A DNA stretch of 21,139 nt. Source: a virus. The notes under the pieces were generated by a model. The model worked only from the letters and a program-made list of their open reading frames with translations. It was not told the origin of the DNA and did not search any database. Numbering within the stretch: the stretch's first letter is position 1; every line of letters starts with the position of its first letter. Where the stretch lies: the IMG/VR virus record IMGVR_UViG_3300043219_000196, positions 1 through 21,139 of that record; one strand, given 5' to 3'. This document shows positions 1-17,713 of the stretch, piece by piece. The position numbers were made by a program, and so were the translations under genes.

Positions 1-58
1 GGTTGCTAGCCCGCAGAAAACGCACCCATAAGAATTTGAAAAATTTCGCGAATTTGGT

Positions 59-106
59 CTTTACCGTAAAACGTTGACCTTTACCGGTCTTCGGGGTACT
101 TTACCG
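59..106. repeat. Three phased 8-bp iterons upstream of the small terminase gene
   Basis: The octamer CTTTACCG occurs at 59-66, 79-86 and 99-106, giving an exact 20-bp period, close to two helical turns. The last copy abuts the ATG at 108. The inverted 7-mer GGTAAAG recurs at 658-664 just after the gene. A second short repeat, CGGGGTAC, occurs at 92-99 and 119-126. Small terminases of lambda-like phages bind repeated sites near the start of their own gene (the R sites of lambda cosB), so a packaging-recognition role is inferred. An operator role is the alternative. The same octamer occurs singly at 17684-17691, so one copy alone means nothing; the phasing is the evidence. AT-rich DNA at 31-58 contains AATTT three times at a 9-bp spacing and might be a bendable segment. 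Confidence 0.55.
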
Positions 107-107
107 C

Positions 108-650
108 ATGGCTGACGACGGGGTACATTTCGCAACTAGAAAAGCTGCGCTGAAATACGCGACGGGGCGGGGCTACCGCCTCGGCTACACACGATTCTGT
201 GAGCACGTCAAAGCGGGGCTGGTGCCTAACTTCAAAAAGGGCGATAAGATCCGCGTCGAGGACATGGTCGCGTACCTGGCGTCGCACGGTGACGCGAGCG
301 AGATGGCCGACACCGTCACGGGGAAAGAGTGCAGCGCCGAGCTCGACCGCCTGTTCAAAATCAAGAAGAATAAAAAAGCGGATCTCGATATCGAATCGAA
401 GGAGCTGGAGAACCGGCGCGAAGATTCGAAGTGGATCAGCCGCGGCGACGCCGACCGAAACTTGATATCGTTTGCGGTACTCCTCGACGCACAATTCGAC
501 CAGATGATAAACACCAGATCGCAAGAACTCGTCGCGCTCGTTGGGGGAGACGATGCAAAGCGCGGCGAGTTTGTGGCTATGCTGCGCGAGATCAAAGACG
601 CGGTATTTAACAACGTTGCCGAGGGCGACGAGACAGAGGTGGATTTGTAG
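108..650 (+). CDS. Phage terminase small subunit (Nu1-like)
   Basis: This 180-residue protein is the likely DNA-recognition subunit of the packaging motor. Residues about 8-65 look like a winged helix-turn-helix (a helix pair around YTRFCEHVKAGLVPNF, then IRVEDMVAYL). Residues about 75-110 are a highly charged Lys/Glu-rich helix suited to oligomerisation, and the rest is helical with an acidic tail. This layout and the position directly before a GpA-type large subunit match the gpNu1 family. The ATG at 108 has no good Shine-Dalgarno sequence because an iteron occupies that place; GGGG at 93-96 is too far away to be convincing. Translation may therefore be weak, or regulated if a protein binds the site. 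Sequence identity to gpNu1 is not obvious by eye, so the assignment rests on architecture and context. Confidence 0.75.
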   Translation: MADDGVHFATRKAALKYATGRGYRLGYTRFCEHVKAGLVPNFKKGDKIRVEDMVAYLASHGDASEMADTVTGKECSAELDRLFKIKKNKKADLDIESKELENRREDSKWISRGDADRNLISFAVLLDAQFDQMINTRSQELVALVGGDDAKRGEFVAMLREIKDAVFNNVAEGDETEVDL

Positions 651-700
651 CGGCTTAGGTAAAGAGCACGAGTTTAGCGAGAGTCTTTTTGACCGACAGT

Positions 701-725: not shown

Positions 726-992
726 ATGTGCAAACATAAAGGACATGGAAGAGACTGTGACTGCCCTTATTGCAGTGGTCAATACAGCGAAAGCAAAAAG
801 AAGGCAGCGCCCCCGACCGCAGAAGACTTAATGTGTTGCGGTAATGCAATGGATAAGCGTTGGAGATTGGGGCGCGGTGAAAATCTTTACCACCATATTT
901 GTAATTACCACGCTTGTAATTTGTGCGGTAAGACGAAGAATGTTTGTACGGCGGATGGATGCGATGCCGTTGGCAGCCTTTGCACCCCTTAA
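726..992 (+). CDS. Small cysteine-rich, probably metal-binding protein (moron candidate)
   Basis: This 88-residue protein is not recognised. It holds 12 cysteines (2, 11, 13, 16, 37, 38, 59, 64, 67, 74, 79, 86) and five histidines (4, 7, 56, 57, 62). The clusters CDCPYC and C-x4-C-x2-C-x6-C-x4-C-x6-C resemble zinc-ribbon or zinc-knuckle ligands, and there is no signal peptide or membrane segment. A hand count gives about 48% GC, visibly lower than the terminase genes on either side. It splits the usual TerS-TerL pair and has its own TATAAT and strong RBS, with a small hairpin behind it. These are the marks of a moron, a separately expressed gene inserted into a late operon. A role such as binding host or phage nucleic acid or protein is possible but cannot be read from the sequence. 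Confidence 0.7.
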   Translation: MCKHKGHGRDCDCPYCSGQYSESKKKAAPPTAEDLMCCGNAMDKRWRLGRGENLYHHICNYHACNLCGKTKNVCTADGCDAVGSLCTP

Positions 993-1063: not shown

Positions 1064-3028
1064 ATGACACTACGCGCGCCCGAGCATATCAAGAAACTTT
1101 TCCCGCAGTCGGTACAAGCGAGCTGCGAGGGGTTGTACCGGTTTGATTTGCCCGCGGCGGTGCGCAGCACGATAAAGCGGCGGCCGCTGATTGACTGTTG
1201 CGAGTGGACTCACCGACACCGTCGACTGCGTGACGACACCCACAACGCCGTCCCTTGGTCGAAAGACTCTACCCCCTACCTCGACGGGTTAATGTTCGCG
1301 GTGTCGCAACCGTGGGTACAGGACGTCGTGTTCGTGGGGTGCCCGCAGTCAGGGAAGAGCGAGTTTGGGCACAACGTCGTCGGATGGTCCACAGAGCATC
1401 ACGCCGGCCCCGTGCTTTATGTCTACCCGGACGAGTTGACCAGCAAGGAGAACAGCACCGAGCGGGTGCTGCCGATGTTCAAAGACTCGCCTGCACTACG
1501 GCGGCACATGACGGGGCACGACGACGACGAGACGACCAACCTCATACGGCTCAAACACCTAAACATTTATTTTGGCTGGTCTTCATCGGTGCGCCGCCTG
1601 GCAAACAAAGCAATCAAAATCCTGATACTTGACGAAGAAGCCAAGTTCGACGAGAGCGCCGGCTCGAAAGAGGGTAACTCGTCACTGCTCGCGCTCAAGC
1701 GTCTCACTAAGTTCGGGGACCGGTACAAGTGTGTCCGCACCTCCACCTGCACCGTCGAGTCGTGTACTATATGGGTCGCGTATCTCGAAAGCCTCTACCA
1801 CTTCGAGTACCACGCACGGTGCCCCGACTGCGACACGCTACAGGCGATGGACTTCGTCGCTCAATCGACTTTCATCTTTCCCGAAGGTGACACAGCGCAG
1901 GAGATCCGCGAAGCACAGAGCGCACGGTATGTGTGCCGGTGCTGCGGCGAACAGTGGAACGATTACAAGCGCGACGTAGCGGTGCGTGCGGGCGAGTGGA
2001 TCTGTAGCGCACCCCCAGGCGTTGAGAATTTCAGCAGTGAAGCTATCGGCGAGAATCTGCACACGGTGGTAATGACGCGGAAGCCGCGCAAGATCGCCGC
2101 GCGCCTGCCGTCGTGGTACAGCGCTTTTGTGTCACTGTCCGAAGTTGTGGCGAACTACATACAGTCGGAGGAGTCCGGTAAGCAGAAAGACAAGCAGGTC
2201 TTTAGAAACCAGGATGAGGCGCTGCCATACGAGAATATCGCGCAGGATCGGCAGATAGAATTTATGCAGCGGCTACGGCGGCCCGATATGCCGAAGGGTG
2301 TAGCGCCTAACGGCACCGTGCTCGTAATGACCGTCGACACACAGCAGAGCTTTTTCTGGTTCGAGGTGCGCGCGTTCGACCCCGAGACAGGACTGCGGGG
2401 GCACTGCCTCGACGCGGGCCGCCTCGTCTCCTTCGAAGATATCGAGAGACACTGGGGCGAGGCGGTCTACGTGAACGTGTCGGGCGAGATCGTACGACCC
2501 CGCATTGGTCTAATCGATTCAGGCGGTACGCGTAAAGAGGGGGAGGAGCACAGCCGCACGAGGCAGGTGTACCAATTTTGTCGCCAAAACCCGCAATTTA
2601 TCCCCTACAAAGGCCGTCCGCAGCAGATAGCGCCGTGGAGAATCTCGAATATTGACTTTTGGCCGGGCACAAATGAGCAAATCCCCGGCGGACTGCAGCT
2701 GTTTATCTGCGATACCAGCTTTTACAAGGACGACTTGGCCGCACGGATCAGCAACGACCCCGAGAGTGAGAGCGCGTGGACATTCTACAGCGAGTACCCC
2801 GACGAGTATTTGAAGCACTACACCGCGGAGTACCGCGACGACAACGGCAAGTGGGCTCATAATAAAAAAATACGCAATGACCTATGGGACTGCGGGCACA
2901 TGTCCCTCTCTGCCGCCGACATTTTAAAAATCGCAGACCTCGGAAAGATTAAGAAGAGGCCGCCGAAAACGATAAAGCCGAAGCACAGAAAAAAACCAAA
3001 ACAGAGCGCATCGAAGTCGATGTGGTAA
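1064..3028 (+). CDS. Phage terminase large subunit, GpA family
   Basis: This 654-residue protein is the ATPase-nuclease that cuts and packages phage DNA. From the ATG at 1064, a Walker A motif GCPQSGKS lies at residues 92-99 and a Walker B-like ILILDE at 186-191. Paired cysteines CPDC (253, 256) and CRCC (291-294) form the zinc-like insertion common in GpA proteins. The C-terminal nuclease half carries the acidic positions MTVDTQ (Asp425) and LIDSGG (Asp485). The last 30 residues are very Lys/Arg-rich. Size matches lambda gpA (641 residues). I chose ATG 1064 because AAGGA at 1055-1059 precedes it; the in-frame TTG at 1034 has no comparable RBS. It belongs to the packaging operon and would dock on the portal at 3633. 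Confidence 0.95.
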   Translation: MTLRAPEHIKKLFPQSVQASCEGLYRFDLPAAVRSTIKRRPLIDCCEWTHRHRRLRDDTHNAVPWSKDSTPYLDGLMFAVSQPWVQDVVFVGCPQSGKSEFGHNVVGWSTEHHAGPVLYVYPDELTSKENSTERVLPMFKDSPALRRHMTGHDDDETTNLIRLKHLNIYFGWSSSVRRLANKAIKILILDEEAKFDESAGSKEGNSSLLALKRLTKFGDRYKCVRTSTCTVESCTIWVAYLESLYHFEYHARCPDCDTLQAMDFVAQSTFIFPEGDTAQEIREAQSARYVCRCCGEQWNDYKRDVAVRAGEWICSAPPGVENFSSEAIGENLHTVVMTRKPRKIAARLPSWYSAFVSLSEVVANYIQSEESGKQKDKQVFRNQDEALPYENIAQDRQIEFMQRLRRPDMPKGVAPNGTVLVMTVDTQQSFFWFEVRAFDPETGLRGHCLDAGRLVSFEDIERHWGEAVYVNVSGEIVRPRIGLIDSGGTRKEGEEHSRTRQVYQFCRQNPQFIPYKGRPQQIAPWRISNIDFWPGTNEQIPGGLQLFICDTSFYKDDLAARISNDPESESAWTFYSEYPDEYLKHYTAEYRDDNGKWAHNKKIRNDLWDCGHMSLSAADILKIADLGKIKKRPPKTIKPKHRKKPKQSASKSMW

Positions 3029-3038
3029 AGGGGGCGAC

Positions 3039-3386
3039 ATGAGCGACGACATTTTGAACGGTATGAAGGAAATCGCGCAGTACGTGAAGCGCAGCGAGTC
3101 GACAGTTCTGGCGATGCACAGAGGGCAAGACCTACCGATGGTCAAAGTTAAAGGCACGGGCGTGTGGACCAGCACAAAGAAAAGCATTGACGCGTGGCTG
3201 GAAAAACTGTTAAATGGCAAAAGCCCGTTGACCGACAGCGACGAGACGGTCGTTACGGACTCGATCGAGATCGCCGTGAAGGGTAACAAACCTGCGATTG
3301 ATGGCTATCTCGAAGCGGGGTACGCCAAAACAGGCAACAGGGTAGCAGACGGTGCGCAGTTCATCACGCTAACGCTCAAACCGTAA
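3039..3386 (+). CDS. Small winged-HTH DNA-binding protein of the packaging module
   Basis: This 115-residue protein has an N-terminal helix-turn-helix (residues about 8-30, with KEIAQYVKRSESTVLAMHR) followed by a wing-like strand (VKVKGTGVWTS) and a helix (IDAWLEKLL). This is the layout of AlpA/excisionase-like proteins and of the gpNu1 N-terminal domain. Residues 60-115 have no recognised domain. It sits ten bases after the large terminase with AGGGGG at 3029-3034 as RBS, and before the gpW-like gene, where lambda has nothing comparable. A second DNA-binding packaging factor or a late regulator are both reasonable; the sequence does not decide between them. Exact family unknown. Confidence 0.7.
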   Translation: MSDDILNGMKEIAQYVKRSESTVLAMHRGQDLPMVKVKGTGVWTSTKKSIDAWLEKLLNGKSPLTDSDETVVTDSIEIAVKGNKPAIDGYLEAGYAKTGNRVADGAQFITLTLKP

Positions 3387-3633: not shown

Positions 3634-5198
3634 TGGCGACCATAGGGAAGCGATACCCCGTGCCAGGTGCAGGGATAAGCAACGCGGAAGCAAAACGCCG
3701 CTTGAAAGACCGCGGCAAATACGCAGCCACACGCAACAGCAGACTAATAGGCAACTGGAACCCTGCCGACCAATCCATAAATGACATACTGCGCGGGGAC
3801 AACCCCGTCATACTCGCCCGCGTCAAGCAATTAGTGCGGGACTTTCCGCCGTTCAAGCGGGCATCGGACGCGATAAAGAATTTTTACGTGGGCGACGGCA
3901 TGAAGTTTCAAGCGCGGGTGCTAAACCCCCTTTGGACAGAGGGCAGCGCCGAGTCTCGCTTCGATCGTAAAATTAACAGAGAGATCGAGGCGGTCATAAC
4001 GGCGTGGCACGACGAGTCAGACTACCAAGGCATAATGTGCTTCGGCGAAATGGAGCGTTTGGCCATAGCCGACGAGCAGGTACTCGGCGAGTTCTACGCA
4101 CTGAAACGCCTTGACCGCGAAGATCGCAACCGGTTTTTACCTTTCGCCTTGCAGATGTACGCACCCGAGTGGCTAACCGATAACGGTGCGAAGCCCCTCG
4201 GCACCAACATGGTCGACCAGGGCGTCGAGTTTACAAAACAGGGCAAAATTGTCGCGACGCATCTAGCCGACCCAACCGACATGCAAACATTCAGAGGCGG
4301 CGCAACTTCCCGCATCGTAAAGGCCGACTCTCTACGTGGGTATGAAGTTCTCGAAGGGGGGCAGCTTCGCGGCGTCTCCGCTTTCGTGGTAGGCGTACTC
4401 GCTGCGCAAAGCCTCGGCGACTACATAGGCGCCACGATGGACACGGCGAAGATGGCGGCGAAGTATCTAGCCTTTATCAAAACGCCCGACCCCGCCGGCC
4501 GTCAAAAACTCATACTGCAGGACGGAGTCGAAAACCCGTACGAGGATCTCGAACAGATCGAAGAAATGGAAAACGCGATCATTGAGTACCTGCGGCCCAA
4601 TGAAGAGGCGGAGCTCGCGGCACCGAACACCGTGTCGGATATGTTCGACCCCGTGACGAAGTTTATTTTAAGATTTGTGGCAATATCCACCAACACCCCG
4701 TACTCGATCCTAACAGGCGACTACAACGGCCTGAACTACACCGTAAGCCGCACCGAGCGCCAAGACTACACGAAGATGCGCCGACCGGGCCAAACGCGCC
4801 TTGTAAAGAACTTCTCAGCGCCCGCAACGTGGGAAGCGCTCGACTGGGCGGTATTGGCGGGGAGAATTGATCTACCAGGCTACGAGCTCAACCCGTGGCG
4901 ATACAGGCGAGGTATTTTTCTACCACCTGGCGACGCGCCAATCGACCCTTTAAAAGAAGCAAAGGCCAATGCGGACAACATCGACAACGGCCTCGACTCA
5001 CAGATACGAATACTCGCAGCGAAAGGGCTGGACGCCGAAGAAGTGCTCGACGAACTTGCAGAATTTCAAGCGATGGCCGCAGAAAAGGGCGTCGAACTCG
5101 GAGACACGGACACACCTCTCGCGGGCAACCCCGCGTCAATTATGCGAATGGTCGAAAACGTGCTCGATAGACAGGAGATGCTAAAAGATGAGGATTAA
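3633..5198 (+). CDS. Portal protein, lambda gpB family
   Basis: This 521-residue protein forms the dodecameric DNA gate at one head vertex. Family features include GEFYALKR and the LQMYAPEWL segment in the first half. The second half carries the characteristic PYSILTGDYNGLNYTVSR, followed by the region around WRYRRGIFLPPGDAPIDPLK, and the C-terminal pattern of a DNIDNGL segment, an alanine-rich helix and an AEFQAMAAEKG helix. Length agrees with gpB (533). The start at 3633 overlaps the gpW-like stop. Reading further upstream is possible in this frame but would run into the gpW gene without an RBS. The end overlaps the next gene by 11 bases, so portal and protease-capsid are probably coupled. 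Very likely correct. Confidence 0.95.
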   Translation: MATIGKRYPVPGAGISNAEAKRRLKDRGKYAATRNSRLIGNWNPADQSINDILRGDNPVILARVKQLVRDFPPFKRASDAIKNFYVGDGMKFQARVLNPLWTEGSAESRFDRKINREIEAVITAWHDESDYQGIMCFGEMERLAIADEQVLGEFYALKRLDREDRNRFLPFALQMYAPEWLTDNGAKPLGTNMVDQGVEFTKQGKIVATHLADPTDMQTFRGGATSRIVKADSLRGYEVLEGGQLRGVSAFVVGVLAAQSLGDYIGATMDTAKMAAKYLAFIKTPDPAGRQKLILQDGVENPYEDLEQIEEMENAIIEYLRPNEEAELAAPNTVSDMFDPVTKFILRFVAISTNTPYSILTGDYNGLNYTVSRTERQDYTKMRRPGQTRLVKNFSAPATWEALDWAVLAGRIDLPGYELNPWRYRRGIFLPPGDAPIDPLKEAKANADNIDNGLDSQIRILAAKGLDAEEVLDELAEFQAMAAEKGVELGDTDTPLAGNPASIMRMVENVLDRQEMLKDED

Positions 5199-17374: not shown

Positions 17375-17713
17375 ATGGCGGTAATTGAGAAGATAAGGGC
17401 CATAGCGCTCGACCAGAACGGCGAAGCGATTCAAGGGCTACCGCTCGGGGTAGGCGCTACGCTTGCCCCTGTGACTATAGCGAATCAGGCGTTCCTCGAT
17501 TGGGACGTCTCAGCGCTTGCCGTCGCTCAATGGGATAGCTCAGAGCGTCTGCAGTACGGCGTCAACGAAGAGATGGCAGAGGCGGGTACGGGAGAGTATT
17601 ACGAGTCATACGCAGAGCGTTACCCCCTGACCGAGGGCGTTAACCAGATAAGATTTTTTAATAACAGCGGAACAGAGCTAAAACTTTACCGATCCGGCAG
17701 GGCTGCAAAATGA
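17375..17713 (+). CDS. Small structural protein, paralogue of the 19061 gene
   Basis: This 112-residue protein is not recognised. Near its start it carries DQNGEAIQGLPLG, which matches DQDGNAIQALPFR in the gene at 19061; both continue with a beta-rich body containing an S-x-L-x-W pattern and end in a Gly-Arg rich tip (YRSGRAAK against YGRRS). The pair flank the fibre gene 17710-19047. It begins one base after the previous stop with AGGGGGG at 17361-17367 and overlaps the fibre gene as ATGA. A small fibre-associated or capsid-surface protein is the best guess. Confidence 0.65.
   Translation: MAVIEKIRAIALDQNGEAIQGLPLGVGATLAPVTIANQAFLDWDVSALAVAQWDSSERLQYGVNEEMAEAGTGEYYESYAERYPLTEGVNQIRFFNNSGTELKLYRSGRAAK

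Follow-up and report, generated by a model that had tools for sequence, protein, structure and literature searches.

There is still debate over how small terminases recognize DNA. In phage lambda, the small terminase (TerS) binds R3 at positions 50 to 65, with contacts at 55 to 63, as well as R2 and R1; the spacing from cosN to R3 is critical (PMC9026076; PMC4669245). N15 has a single R3, at positions 48 to 60 (PMC9026076; PMC4669245). The R sequences differ even among lambda, 21, and N15 (PMC4669245). The stretch of viral DNA analyzed here (21,139 bp, a whole IMG/VR record, hereafter the window) carries three exact copies of CTTTACCG leading up to its TerS gene. From sequence comparison, we consider this array to be probably the cosB, i.e., the TerS-docking part, of a lambda-type cos site, with the left cosN at bp 1 of the window or no more than a few bases from it. 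Three R-like sites in the same direction, set 20 bp apart and reaching the TerS start, are most likely a new layout of the site known from lambda. What is directly observed comprises the repeats, their spacing, the gene families, and the clustered, natural-looking contig ends of relatives.

The terminase genes belong to the Nu1 (TerS) and gpA (TerL) families, as a lambda-type cos site requires (features are listed in the table). The profile matched by TerS, phrog_57, also takes in lambda Nu1 (E 1e-76) and N15 gp1, and the TerS of the window belongs to a TerS profile matched in 209 loci. When this TerS family was compared by profile with four known phrog_57 members, 45 columns could be aligned, in the middle region only. 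The predicted structure of TerS has a pLDDT of 87. Neither the full protein nor its N-terminal domain had a clear match in fold searches, and lambda gpNu1 was absent among the matches listed, which included MerR, GlnR, and Xis winged-helix chains with low Z beside unrelated helical proteins. The terminase genes are followed by a lambda-family portal, a ClpP-like protease-capsid fusion, and tail genes. The record is classed as linear in IMG/VR, so that bp 1 is a contig end, and the right genome end is absent from it, the sequence stopping within an amidase gene. Between TerS and TerL lies an ORF for an 88-aa cysteine-rich (zinc-ribbon-like) protein with a strong Shine-Dalgarno sequence and a lower G+C of 0.48. 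TerS and TerL adjoin or overlap in the relatives inspected, with no such ORF between them, and it had no homologue in the fetched loci. A helix-turn-helix (HTH_17-like) protein is encoded between TerL and the portal. Its homologues occur in about 17 relatives, mostly directly after TerL, and it is a possible second DNA-binding partner in packaging.

Table. Positions of the sites and genes discussed in the text
Feature	Position	Strand	Evidence
Probable left cohesive end (cosN half), GGTTGCTAGCCC	1-12	+	contig end, GG[GT].{7,9}CC fit, alignments
A/T-rich spacer, cosN to iterons	28-58	+	sequence, alignments
Iteron 1, CTTTACCG	59-66	+	exact
Iteron 2, CTTTACCG	79-86	+	exact
CGGGGTAC, first copy	92-99	+	
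Iteron 3, CTTTACCG	99-106	+	exact
Small terminase (TerS), N-terminal helix-turn-helix region, 180 aa	108-650	+	phrog_57 E 6.5e-5
CGGGGTAC, second copy, within TerS	119-126	+	
Inverted 7-mer GGTAAAG, after the TerS stop (650)	658-664	-	
88-aa cysteine-rich ORF	726-992		
Large terminase (TerL), gpA type, ATPase and nuclease domains	1064-3028	+	PF05876 E 2e-50, PF20454 E 1e-37
Helix-turn-helix (HTH_17-like) protein	3039-3386		

The first-pass annotation had described three perfect copies at a 20-bp period before the TerS ATG, and this is exactly what is found. All three face the same direction, their start-to-start spacing is exactly 20 and 20 with 12 bp between copies, and C107 is the sole base between the third copy and the ATG. 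Iteron 1 starts 58 bp from the contig end. The phased exact triple is far above chance expectation: dinucleotide shuffling of positions 1 to 1200 produced no 8-mer in three copies with a constant period between 9 and 60 in 2000 rounds, and shuffling of the entire window produced one in 1 of 200 rounds. Outside the array, CTTTACCG occurs exactly once more in the 21,139 bp, at 17684 to 17691 within a coding ORF, which is about the number expected by chance. Because the only copy elsewhere in the 21 kb is this chance one, the repeats point to a function at a single site. A second repeat had been said to span the TerS start; both copies of CGGGGTAC do exist, but their spacing of 27 bp puts them out of phase with the 20-bp array. 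The inverted GGTAAAG reported behind the gene is present as well. Taken by themselves, the CGGGGTAC pair and the lone inverted 7-mer are each weak.

Rep-protein origins typically have iterons whose period is near-helical, and the period of the array would suit such an origin. It is also possible to see a functionless remnant here; the array is not conserved among relatives, as described below. Both ideas are very improbable in our judgment. There are only three copies, they head the packaging genes with no recognized replication gene adjoining, and the shuffles make chance very unlikely as the source of the array.

The likeness of the locus to lambda cosB (R3-I1-R2-R1) lies in repeated sites upstream of TerS, a homologous TerS family, and a gpA TerL. 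If bp 1 is the end, iteron 1 takes the place of R3 in lambda and N15, and the repeated candidate TerS sites start about 50 to 65 bp from bp 1, as expected of a cosB. CTTTACCG matches the lambda R3 core CGTTTCCG (lambda 53 to 60) at 6 of 8 bases, and TGAAAAATTT at positions 37 to 46 of the window is identical to N15 bp 32 to 41, the lambda counterpart being TGAAAATTTT. The layout differs from that of lambda, however, where R2 is inverted and an IHF site lies between R3 and R2. The order R3-I1-R2(inverted)-R1, which makes up the complex cosB of lambda, 21, and phi80, is not found in the window. The 12 bp between copies leave too little room for an IHF site, and the nearest IHF-like match, with 1 mismatch, is at 29 to 41, 5' of the array. 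N15 is similar in its compact cos, in the closeness of its TerS start (89 in N15 and 108 in the window), and in its left-end sequence. Whereas N15 has one R site and a dispensable inverted copy (rR2) within TerS, the window has three sites in tandem, and its weak inverted GGTAAAG may be compared with rR2. By analogy, the site of the window resembles a compact N15-like cos in which the single site has been multiplied.

The position of the left cohesive end is central to this comparison. For 81 relatives with a contig end upstream of TerL, the distance from that end to the TerS start was measured; distances below 50 bp were excluded, as some TerS genes there are truncated. Ends lying 50 to 150 bp upstream of TerS were seen 12 times, against 1.8 expected from the rest (P 5e-7). 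The contigs of relatives that end there start alike, with GGTAACGCGCGACC, GGTAACTCACAACC, GGTCGCGCATGCC, and GGGCGGAACCCC, as lambda does with GGGCGGCGACCT. The pattern GG[GT].{7,9}CC, which the window start also fits, is found at 12 of 107 contig starts of relatives (0.55 expected) and at 8 of the 18 contig ends 50 to 300 bp upstream of TerS, figures that should be read knowing that the pattern was devised after the data had been seen and that the contigs bearing it include near relatives (groups L035/L039/L042 and L118/L132). Isolate phages with PhageTerm-defined or otherwise known cohesive ends lend independent support, by analogy, to bp 1 as an end: HFM1 has an 11-nt PhageTerm end starting GGACCGAGGAC and TerS at 183, Mano a 7-nt end and TerS at 82, and N15 a 12-nt end and TerS at 89, while TerS (Nu1) of lambda starts at 191. 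The overhangs of these four phages range from 7 to 12 nt. In direct alignment, with eleven references tried, positions 1 to 66 of the window scored above 1994 of 2000 shuffles against the N15 left end and above 1971 of 2000 against that of lambda, and in each case they outscored all except 2 of the 2829 other 66-mers of the window. A summed 30-bp score against seven isolate left ends placed bp 1 only in the top 8% and did not single it out. Eight long relatives (L090, L037, L018, L050, L053, L035, L127, and L063) had no one short cohesive end common to both of their ends; their right ends are probably incomplete, and the ends of L018 overlap, as in a circular assembly. Judged from these sequences, it is likely, if not proven, that bp 1 is a cohesive end.

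A different possibility is that the repeats form a TerS site of the pac type, with headful packaging of a circularly permuted genome and no cohesive end at bp 1. The pac site of SPP1 consists of three sets of direct repeats across the TerS start (PMC4737164), and direct repeats across the start of a small terminase gene are what the window has; the failure of the 30-bp profile to pick out bp 1 would also fit. We nevertheless regard a pac site as improbable, given that a gpA-type TerL with a phrog_57 TerS is of lambda type, that contig ends of relatives cluster before TerS with cohesive-end-like starts, and that HFM1 and Mano, two phages with this type of terminase and a PhageTerm annotation, have cohesive ends. 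Headful packaging sets the SPP1 and SF6 pac sites apart from a cosB. In SF6, likewise of the pac type, binding by the TerS domain is not specific to the pac repeats (PMC4737164), which by analogy is a caution against a specific reading of the iterons by TerS in the window.

The first-pass annotation had proposed that related phages be compared for phased octamers before TerS, and this comparison did not bear the array out: the repeats are absent from relatives, all of them distant, with TerS mostly 17 to 29% identical. The 209 loci with a TerS homologue beside gpA, many of them from Desulfobacterota genomes, include no close one, and the TerL of the best viral matches is 33 to 36% identical over its full length. 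Single-protein searches with TerS, TerL, and the portal found no close relative, and TerS had no match among isolate phages. The exact CTTTACCG triple was not found in viral contigs, and a CTTTACCG pair at 20 bp occurs in 27 stretches, about the number expected by chance and none with a TerS-family gene. Among the upstream regions of other TerS-family genes, 194 of 194 lack such an array. In an exact test for phased 7-mer triples across 195 upstream regions, the window was joined only by L034, whose triple was rejected as low-complexity coding sequence. When degenerate copies were allowed (three 9-mers, period 15 to 32), the window ranked top of the 195 regions and above all 390 control regions, and the relatives resembled the controls. 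As far as collections reach, the array appears so far to be private to the lineage of this phage.

Among isolates, Mano-like phages, FoX, and HFM1 are gpA/phrog_57 phages in which TerS lies 74 to 183 bp from the end defined by PhageTerm or from the start of the record, and their cos sites lack a triple at 20 bp. In Mano, MQ-4, and FoX, CTTTAC or GTTTAC occurs once, at 21 to 52. Words similar to CTTTACCG near the ends (GGACTTTAC from 44 in Mano, GGCGTTTAC from 35 in MQ-4, and GGCTTTAC from 19 to 35 in FoX) are suggestive only. This lack of conservation takes away the strongest possible support for reading the array as a TerS site. It does not refute that reading, because the relatives are only distant ones and R sequences vary among lambda, 21, and N15, and a lineage-private array fits, by analogy with these three phages, a fast change of packaging specificity. 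The recognition site for TerS proposed in the first-pass annotation remains the best-supported reading, which the probable cohesive end sharpens to a cosB, even if the relatives lack the array. Against a cosB stand the distant relatives without the array, the absence of the lambda layout, and the 30-bp profile that does not single out bp 1.

The mechanism that we infer for this cosB takes in TerS binding, cutting, the position of cosN in this phage, and autoregulation. The helix-turn-helix domains of TerS would bind the three R-like sites, at 59, 79, and 99, side by side. As 20 bp is about two turns, the sites would face almost the same side of the helix, and several TerS subunits could dock one way as a short same-face array. 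Docked TerS would then anchor the gpA-type TerL over cosN, about 50 to 60 bp away, for nicking, and may keep TerL on the left end as packaging starts. Because the last site adjoins the TerS start codon, feedback is possible, and bound TerS may dampen its own expression. The array had been thought to take the place of a ribosome-binding site. The Shine-Dalgarno match of TerS is indeed just 3 nt, but so is that of four other genes of this phage; the weak match is compatible with autoregulation, yet not special in this genome. It is conceivable, though on balance doubtful, that the cosB consists of three identical same-face direct sites, with neither an inverted site nor a host bending protein, and is also an operator over the TerS start. 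If this operator reading were true, the terminase would sense its own level via its packaging site.

Alternatively, the array may be an operator of transcription or translation for a late operon starting with TerS, with TerS, the helix-turn-helix protein encoded after TerL, or a host protein as its binder. The overlap of the array with the TerS start, the weak Shine-Dalgarno match, and the conserved helix-turn-helix gene after TerL in many relatives are consistent with this. We think it improbable all the same, since positions 1 to 1200 contain no sigma-70-like promoter, no other gene start is preceded by an exact CTTTACCG, and a cosB accounts for where the array lies with respect to the probable cohesive end. 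As a cosB, three exact, evenly phased copies would offer a simple substrate for footprinting and structural work on cos-type TerS.

Natural cohesive ends in metagenome contigs with a gpA terminase may be recognizable by a stop shortly before TerS together with the common GG[GT]..CC start, and such contig ends may give candidate cos sites for uncultured phages that have no isolates. Several other repeats were seen in these collections. In L273, a contig without this TerS family, there are ACTTTACCGGCG repeats related to the iteron word; on its reverse complement, ACTTTACCGGCGCG occurs eight times over about 1.4 kb (3639 to 5073), several pairs being 18 to 20 bp apart, and looks like a separate multi-site signal. 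L271, a phage contig that also lacks this TerS family, has several near copies of GGTAAACTTTCTTTACCG at 842 to 923. CTAG is found about 21 to 29 bp from the end in L035, L039, L042, L043, L049, L052, L065, L073, and L090, all with cos-like starts, and is possibly a conserved cos element; in the window, it sits at 6 to 9 instead. In L043, a 20-bp direct repeat, AAAGCGCACTCAGTGCACCT, is present at 83 to 135 as copies 34 bp apart, less than 140 bp from a contig start of GGGCCTCAACCCC, and these repeats are candidate R sites of another cos.
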